Below, piece after piece: positions 11,469 through 11,540 of a stretch of 26,023 nucleotides of DNA (positions within the stretch are counted from its first letter, which is position 1; the number at the start of each line of letters is the position of its first letter). Position numbers and translations under genes: made by a program. A model generated the notes under the pieces. It had not been told where the DNA came from. It did not search any database and saw nothing but the letters and a program-made list of their open reading frames with translations. Source of the DNA: a virus; the IMG/VR virus record IMGVR_UViG_3300017950_000056, positions 1 through 26,023 of that record. One strand, 5' to 3'.

Positions 11469-11540
11469 ATGTGGACGAAACCTCACGCAACAGAGATGAG
11501 ATTTGGATTTGAAGTTACACTTTACGTAATGAACAAGTAA
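11469..11540 (+). CDS. pqqA: PqqA, precursor peptide of the cofactor PQQ
   Basis: A 23-residue peptide, the exact size of bacterial PqqA. It begins MWTKPHATE and ends [11 protein letters not shown]. The two residues that become PQQ are in place: Glu15 and Tyr19, in the invariant E-x-x-x-Y spacing, and the flanking K-P near the start and R-x-G-F-E-V-T core match bacterial PqqA. In hosts, PqqD chaperones the peptide and the radical-SAM enzyme PqqE joins Glu to Tyr; PqqB and PqqC complete the cofactor. None of these partners is in the window, so host enzymes would be needed. Strong SD AAGGAG seven bases upstream, structured leader before it, perfect terminator after it: an independently controlled single-gene unit. 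Confidence 0.9.
   Translation: [23 protein letters not shown]

Follow-up and report, generated by a model that had tools for sequence, protein, structure and literature searches.

PQQ is the cofactor of methanol dehydrogenases, which open methanol oxidation. The closest described relative of the locus analysed here is the T4-like methylophage population VP_266 of Lake Baikal, reported in 2020 to carry PqqA and methanol dehydrogenase (PMC7678222). It resembles the present phage in its T4-like character, in its Methylophilaceae host (here a probable one) and in the proposal that pqqA is an auxiliary metabolic gene. It differs in that the available part of that report describes PqqA in one population, with no leader, operator or RNA element, and in that the present contig has no methanol dehydrogenase in its 26 kb. 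Viral pqqA, pqqD and pqqE are also listed for reservoir sediments in the accessible part of another study (PMC13188868). Phage PqqA as such is already known.

The Methylophilaceae themselves are described as having 3–12 copies of pqqA and, with one exception, a single pqqBCDE (PMC4109929, available part). That paper deals, as far as its available text goes, with host genes and does not describe leader elements, whereas the copy analysed here belongs to a phage. The host genomes searched here hold the same peptide type, and 24 genomes searched had 2 to 12 pqqA copies. Twelve PqqA matches were found in Methylophilales bacterium LSUCC0135 (G002, about 2.1 Mb, the genome of L164). The presence of multicopy pqqA beside a single pqqBCDE looks as if PqqA dosage matters.

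A cis-regulatory RNA in front of a phage gene likewise has a described counterpart in the phage glutamine riboswitch RF01739, which differs from the pqqA leader RNA in both sequence and structure. The open-access literature searched contained nothing on point on a PQQ or pqqA riboswitch, and the available main texts of the Melnitz, MEP401/402 and Venkman papers mention no pqqA or PQQ gene, PQQ being named only as a medium component for Melnitz. Within that literature, what appears to be new is the presence of pqqA in all methylophage isolates found, the operator-like palindrome shared with bacteria, the RNA element and the splitting of some pqqA genes.

The pqqA gene and its surroundings

The window, by which we mean the whole 26,023-base virus fragment analysed, carries T4-type replication genes, namely UvsW, gp46-like, gp45, gp44, gp62, RegA and a family B polymerase (Pfam, PHROGs), and on this gene content the phage is classed as T4-like. 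Thymidylate synthase and deoxycytidylate deaminase-like genes are likewise found on the contig by Pfam and PHROG scans. Pfam scans of 39 of the ORFs of this 26 kb fragment of the phage genome gave no pqqB-E and no methanol dehydrogenase.

The original prediction was of a 23-codon pqqA with a Shine-Dalgarno sequence, a K-P start and Glu15/Tyr19. The open reading frame is found exactly as described at 11469–11540 on the plus strand (23 codons plus stop), behind AAGGAGA at 11456–11462; the 23-residue peptide has K4-P5, and E15 and Y19 have the Glu-x-x-x-Tyr spacing of PqqA. Profile searches, which had been named as the check on this prediction, place the product above both curated cut-offs (Pfam PqqA, PF08042: E 2.3e-9, 37.4 bits, cut-off 21.1; NCBIfam TIGR02107: E 3.8e-9, 36.2 bits, cut-off 20). 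This is far beyond chance, and the product is PqqA. PF08042 matches nowhere else in the record, and PHROGs gave no match for the peptide.

The gene had also been credited with its own leader, and this is borne out; the leader is indeed the most novel part of the locus. Directly 5' of the Shine-Dalgarno sequence there is a hairpin, GTTTATATAAATTTTATAAAC, at 11435–11455 on the plus strand. In 53 copies the region before the Shine-Dalgarno sequence folds on average better than mononucleotide shuffles (mean z -1.49, with z < -1 in 30 of the 53). The entire 178-nt leader folds no better than shuffles (z -0.96), and the signal is thus local. A consensus scan listed no sigma-70-like promoter on the plus strand within the leader. 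A T4 late promoter was considered and rejected, TATAAATW sites in the window being no commoner than in shuffles; for the one at 11440–11447, before pqqA, no such claim is made because it lies inside the hairpin.

The further prediction of a terminator stands in part. A plus-strand hairpin with a T-run at 11561–11588 (fold -16.2 kcal/mol, z -2.75) is a probable intrinsic terminator, but a consensus scan gave this stem on the minus strand only. The predicted gene order regA-pqqA-rpsU also needs some qualification. Both anchors are present on the plus strand, with the regA translational repressor upstream at 10658–11086 (Pfam PF01818, 157 bits; phrog_242) and an rpsU-like (bS21) gene downstream at 11714–11980 (PF01165, 58.3 bits). 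However, a 65-codon ORF at 11093–11290 on the same strand, with no Pfam match over cut-off and no PHROG, intervenes between regA and the pqqA unit, and the rpsU-like gene seems to have a non-standard AUA start: its first in-frame ATG, GTG or TTG is only at 11849, and none is found near its Shine-Dalgarno sequence. By eye, guided by PF01165, the start is apparently AUA in the window and in L031, and AUC in L251 and L252. Starts of the AUA and AUC type are those discriminated by IF3.

Other small genes lie further downstream. The product of 12173–12403 is a small phage protein barely above the Pfam cut-off for the RNA polymerase subunit Rpb6/omega (26.6 against 26 bits), and 12469–12936 is an Hsp20 gene. 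Rfam gave no ROSE match in the window; on another contig (L057), a ROSE_3 RNA thermometer at 1445–1510 occurs together with pqqA and its leader RNA.

Distribution and constraint of phage pqqA

A tblastn search of 50,697 phage records found pqqA in nine records of Methylophilales or Methylophilaceae phages (Venkman, MEP301, P19250A, MEP401, MEP402 and four Melnitz records) and in one environmental podovirus, MW202481. All nine of the methylophage isolate records found therefore have the gene, and it is annotated as such in none of them; the nine are isolates found via pqqA or blastn, further methylophages in the taxonomy (e.g. MEP431-434) being outside the count. The five small isolates have no annotated feature at the pqqA match; the four Melnitz records and MW202481 have only a hypothetical protein there, annotated on the opposite strand. 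When one end of MEP401 was used as a blastn query, the stretch common to Venkman, P19250A, MEP301 and Melnitz-1 was the pqqA segment only; Venkman and MEP301 have, in addition, a lysis region in common.

Two matches to Acinetobacter phage MD-2021a were excluded from this count, as the record set looks bacterial. One of its contigs (L009, CAKLQF020000010) contains pqqA and ppk together with a pqqB-E cluster, and is therefore probably bacterial.

In IMG/VR, a peptide-shaped DNA pattern gave a readable PqqA in 119 of 120 contigs among the matches listed, the exception being L025, which is not PqqA. Some contigs are present twice under different ids (e.g. L110 and L251). The 48 distinct peptides from the listed matches, together with that of the window, all match PF08042 (49 of 49, E 0.001 or better). 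Phage pqqA is commoner than annotated. Nine of the viral contigs (L011, L017, L020, L024, L026, L053, L074, L101 and L118) have PqqA of other types, e.g. TYETIRLGFEVTMYFKNR; types away from the methylophage consensus perhaps belong to phages of other PQQ producers.

As to position, the original prediction expected the same gene near regA in related phages. Among 80 viral loci that encode a RegA relative, 17 have it within 1.5 kb downstream of regA, including all five loci closest by RegA identity (100 to 87.5%); the nearest of these five comes from a near-identical contig. The remaining 63 of 80 loci have no pqqA within this distance (of the 80, 11 have less than 800 nt there and 69 have 800 nt or more), and the gene is therefore optional at the regA site. 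In the Melnitz records it is elsewhere, beside tRNA-Leu and a gp5-like gene. The site would thus appear to be shared by near relatives, while the gene itself moves.

The phage genes are under purifying selection and constrained in the manner of host PqqA: for 158 distinct phage pqqA genes, mean pS is 0.647 and mean pN 0.129, giving pN/pS 0.20. Some phage peptides are identical to host peptides. Conservation of Glu15 and Tyr19 had been proposed as a further check, and both are retained in every one of the 51 intact phage PqqA that were identified solely through the RNA leader (see below), among the matches listed. Only these 51 test the two residues, because the search pattern required both in the selection-analysis sets of 158 and 126 genes. 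In L395 and L422, whose PqqA also lies behind the RNA element, residue 17, between the two cross-linked residues, is Cys in place of Thr (FEICMY).

In two further contigs (L357 and L393) the pqqA behind the RNA element is interrupted inside codon 14, which encodes the Phe before Glu15, and continues as EVTMYVMN about 240 nt further on. The insert of L393 (12402–12643, plus strand) belongs to the group I intron family RF00028 (84.9 bits, gathering score 50). The insert of L357 has no Rfam match up to E 0.1, and its core is similar to group I by eye; inserts of this type were found in at least eight loci (L357, L375, L385, L414, L423, L424, L427 and L436). Group I splicing follows the rule that a T stands before the intron and a G at its end, and the exon ends of the split pqqA genes are consistent with it. 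An intron at the most conserved point of so short a gene would fit with strong constraint.

A control region shared with methylotrophic bacteria

Two elements in the leader, a palindrome and a structured RNA, are shared with bacteria. The palindrome, TTAATGCTTTTAACTAG, is at 11309–11325 on the plus strand and is a variant of a palindrome of host PQQ genes, CTCATGATTTTCATTAG. The window's own copy is a weak one, scoring 9.3 bits in the matching leader L250, 143 nt before the ATG. In host pqqA leaders the consensus is found in 111 of 129 at 10 bits or more, with 0.2 expected in shuffles; this host figure is in-sample, because the operator matrix was trained on host leaders, and the phage figures are not. 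Among 124 distinct phage leaders the palindrome is present in 42 at 10 bits and in 56 at 8 bits (0.2 and 1.0 expected from shuffles), the other 68 scoring under 8 bits. The isolate phages have it at 8 bits or more in four of six leaders. The 124 were drawn from 276 leaders by removing L001 (the window copy), L009 (bacterial), leaders of less than 120 nt or with N, and repeats whose final 70 nt are identical; L250 stands for the window.

Three host genomes were searched for the palindrome with up to two mismatches. This gave 14 matches in 13 places, and the pattern read backwards, as a control, gave five matches. Eight of the 13 places, the three perfect sites among them, immediately precede pqqA or pqqB, and pqqB and pqqC beside one of the palindromes were confirmed by NCBIfam. 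The other five (L465, L469 and L472-L474), none of them perfect, have no adjacent pqqA or pqqB; they possibly have other roles or arise by chance. The palindrome resembles an operator controlling a PQQ regulon.

The structured RNA element lies at 11388–11436 on the plus strand. The window reads CTCAAG-AAAGA-CC...-TC-TCTTT-CGATATGAG between the palindrome and the Shine-Dalgarno sequence (11391–11435). Alignment and covariation divide this into CTCAAG (11391–11396), a helix P1 (11397–11401 with 11422–11426) and a helix P2 (11406–11410 with 11415–11419). In relatives the loops are unchanged and the stems differ, e.g. GTAGA/TCTAC, TGGGA/TCCCA, TTGGA/TCCAA and GCAGA/TCTGC, with conserved internal-loop sequences UCAAG and YGANCU flanking covarying helices. 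The covariance model R1 scores the window at 45.9 bits (E 2.9e-12), its next best place being 9.8, the window copy being among the model's own sources.

The association with pqqA was obtained from a scan of IMG/VR viral contigs that used the motif only and not pqqA. It gave at least 120 matches, comprising 39 exact repeats and 81 distinct sequences. Among these 81, in the matches listed, all three variable P1 pairs are formed in 58, and two, one and none in 4, 11 and 8, respectively; by simple arithmetic, full pairing would be expected in about 5% at random letters. The 58 paired matches (again among those listed) comprise 51 before an intact pqqA, two before a split pqqA (L357, L393), three at contig ends (L330, which begins as PqqA, L365 and L429) and two that are unrelated (L347, L388). 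In the 51 intact cases PqqA starts 30 to 58 nt beyond the motif. None of the 23 distinct unpaired matches among those listed precedes PqqA.

Covariation was scored on an alignment (A1) of 59 copies, 57 of them distinct, which left out L001, L347 and L388 and in which the window stands in for L250. The score is 0.633, against 0.180 when shuffled and at most 0.137 with the partner slid; P1 pairing in this alignment is 100% by construction, the unselected figures being those of the motif scan. An outer helix P0, which was not used in selection, is paired in 79.5% of cells, with both sides changed at each of its three pairs. Counting further pair types alone shows no excess over shuffles (20 against 19.2). 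P2 is weaker, with at least three outer pairs in 36 of the 59 copies and a mean of 3.19 against 1.81 in shuffles. The leader RNA thus has the covariance-supported secondary structure expected of a riboswitch (0.633 against 0.180), and like a riboswitch it keeps to one pathway: in viruses it precedes 51 intact and two split pqqA genes in 58 matches (of those listed), and in bacteria it precedes pqqA in 20 of 20.

Not every phage pqqA has the element. In the 120 listed contigs found by the pqqA pattern, the covariance model found 13 copies, all of at least 37.8 bits and all before pqqA, from which it follows that most phage pqqA genes do without it; other places in these contigs, or in 69 regA loci, score 15.8 bits at most. 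It is absent by the covariance model from the isolate-phage pieces searched (L002-L007), and at the regA site 11 of the 17 relatives with pqqA are without it by simple pattern.

Rfam at the gathering threshold gave no match in the window, and none on the element in 12 carriers among 17 related loci. In five more carriers, searched with E up to 5, only PhrS (3 nt overlap, L045) and BTnc005 (L378) touch it; the latter, a long match that covers the element, reaches 21 bits where the gathering score is 174.8. The glutamine riboswitch RF01739 itself occurs just upstream of pqqA in two contigs (L087, 6560–6606; L120, 2114–2161), where it is followed by a small ORF, with pqqA about 105–110 nt behind; L088 and L122 are alike by eye.

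In bacteria, the covariance model found the RNA element in 20 of 150 Methylophilaceae genomes, with one copy each, and all 20 copies precede a tandem pair of pqqA genes. All of these genomes are of 1.0–1.4 Mb; at least one Methylophilaceae genome of 1.3 Mb (G033) is without the element. Two overlapping samples, 369 genomes from the class and 398 from the phylum, contained it in the seed genome only; searches over more than 40 genomes were run with stricter filters. The original prediction called for a host with pqqE. This agrees with what is found in the only bacterial group that shares the leader, where each of the 20 sampled genomes has one PqqE over cut-off and two or three pqqA. That this OM43-like methylotroph group is the host of the window's phage is what the shared leader RNA suggests; the label OM43-like follows from the family, the small genome size and MAG titles (L136, L137, L173). 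The host copies have P1 of the types TTGAA and TTGGA only, one of them (L461) with a broken pair, and P1 is more varied in phages. The element may therefore be older in phages, though the two collections are unequal.

Possible role of the phage gene

On the basis of these observations, we hypothesise that a T4-like phage of a streamlined (OM43-like) methylotroph took a monocistronic pqqA, together with its control region, from the PQQ regulon of its host. The host's own regulator would drive the phage gene through the operator, the structured RNA leader would tune it, and the hairpin would end the transcript. The product, a normal PqqA peptide, would be an added substrate for the single PqqD/PqqE pathway of the host. 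One PqqA peptide is consumed per PQQ. Given this and the expected fall of host expression in infection, extra pqqA would keep the methanol dehydrogenases supplied and the cell energised. Modification of the peptide by PqqE would then raise PQQ during infection, feeding methanol oxidation. The T4-like replication genes around pqqA and the pN/pS of 0.20 would fit an auxiliary metabolic gene, in which case the gene would presumably come from the host and benefit the phage. Several observations speak against this reading: the weak operator copy of the window, the 68 phage leaders below 8 bits, the lack of a listed sigma-70-like promoter in the leader, the five matches to the backwards palindrome and the 63 regA loci with no pqqA nearby. 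That the phage pqqA is a captured host-type unit, giving extra substrate to PqqD/PqqE under host-type control, is in our judgement probable.

The same peptide might instead act as a decoy, occupying PqqD/PqqE so as to lower PQQ and shut down methanol oxidation or competing metabolism in the host. Such a decoy would likewise need a good PqqA-like sequence and strong expression, but it is made less likely by the retention of both cross-linked residues in 51 of 51 intact leader-found peptides (among the matches listed). The identity of some phage peptides to host ones, and the retention of the host PQQ-gene palindrome and RNA, point the same way, and we regard the idea as unlikely. It is also improbable that pqqA is a passenger, often picked up since it is short and multicopy in hosts, and of no benefit to the phage: the many host copies and the different genomic places of the gene in different phages would suit this, but purifying selection and the presence of the gene in all nine isolate records found do not. 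Co-expression of a PqqA-annotated family with defence systems has been discussed (PMC11118758, available part), and would suit a repurposed RiPP, modified by PqqE and serving as a signal, toxin or superinfection factor. However, no phage-borne modifying enzyme is seen beside pqqA, and the peptide is constrained in the same way as host PqqA, which makes this very improbable.

The function of the leader RNA can be separated from that of the peptide. There is something close to an even chance that it senses no ligand and either simply affects translation or stability, as an element of phage origin, or is bound by a protein such as RegA or an RNA chaperone. In keeping with this, the element is close to the Shine-Dalgarno sequence, often with a hairpin, its P1 pairs vary more among phages than among host copies, and most of the regA-site relatives (11 of 17, by simple pattern) carry pqqA without it. 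Conserved UCAAG and YGANCU loops flanking covarying helices are, however, more than a simple stem needs, and the element stands only before pqqA, hosts included, bar the two unrelated, chance-like matches among those listed. More tentatively, the leader RNA could possibly sense PQQ, a PQQ intermediate or a linked signal (e.g. lanthanide). It would then be the first riboswitch of the PQQ pathway; many phages would use it to fit their PqqA output to the cofactor state of the methylotroph they infect, and may have passed the element to OM43-like bacteria.

Should methylophage isolates in general have an unannotated PqqA of 23 codons, supplying the precursor of this cofactor would be widespread among methylophages rather than a peculiarity of a single lake. 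The operator-like palindrome and the covarying RNA, both shared with the bacteria, also provide a handle on the regulation of PQQ synthesis in them, and both are testable in cultured phage-host pairs.
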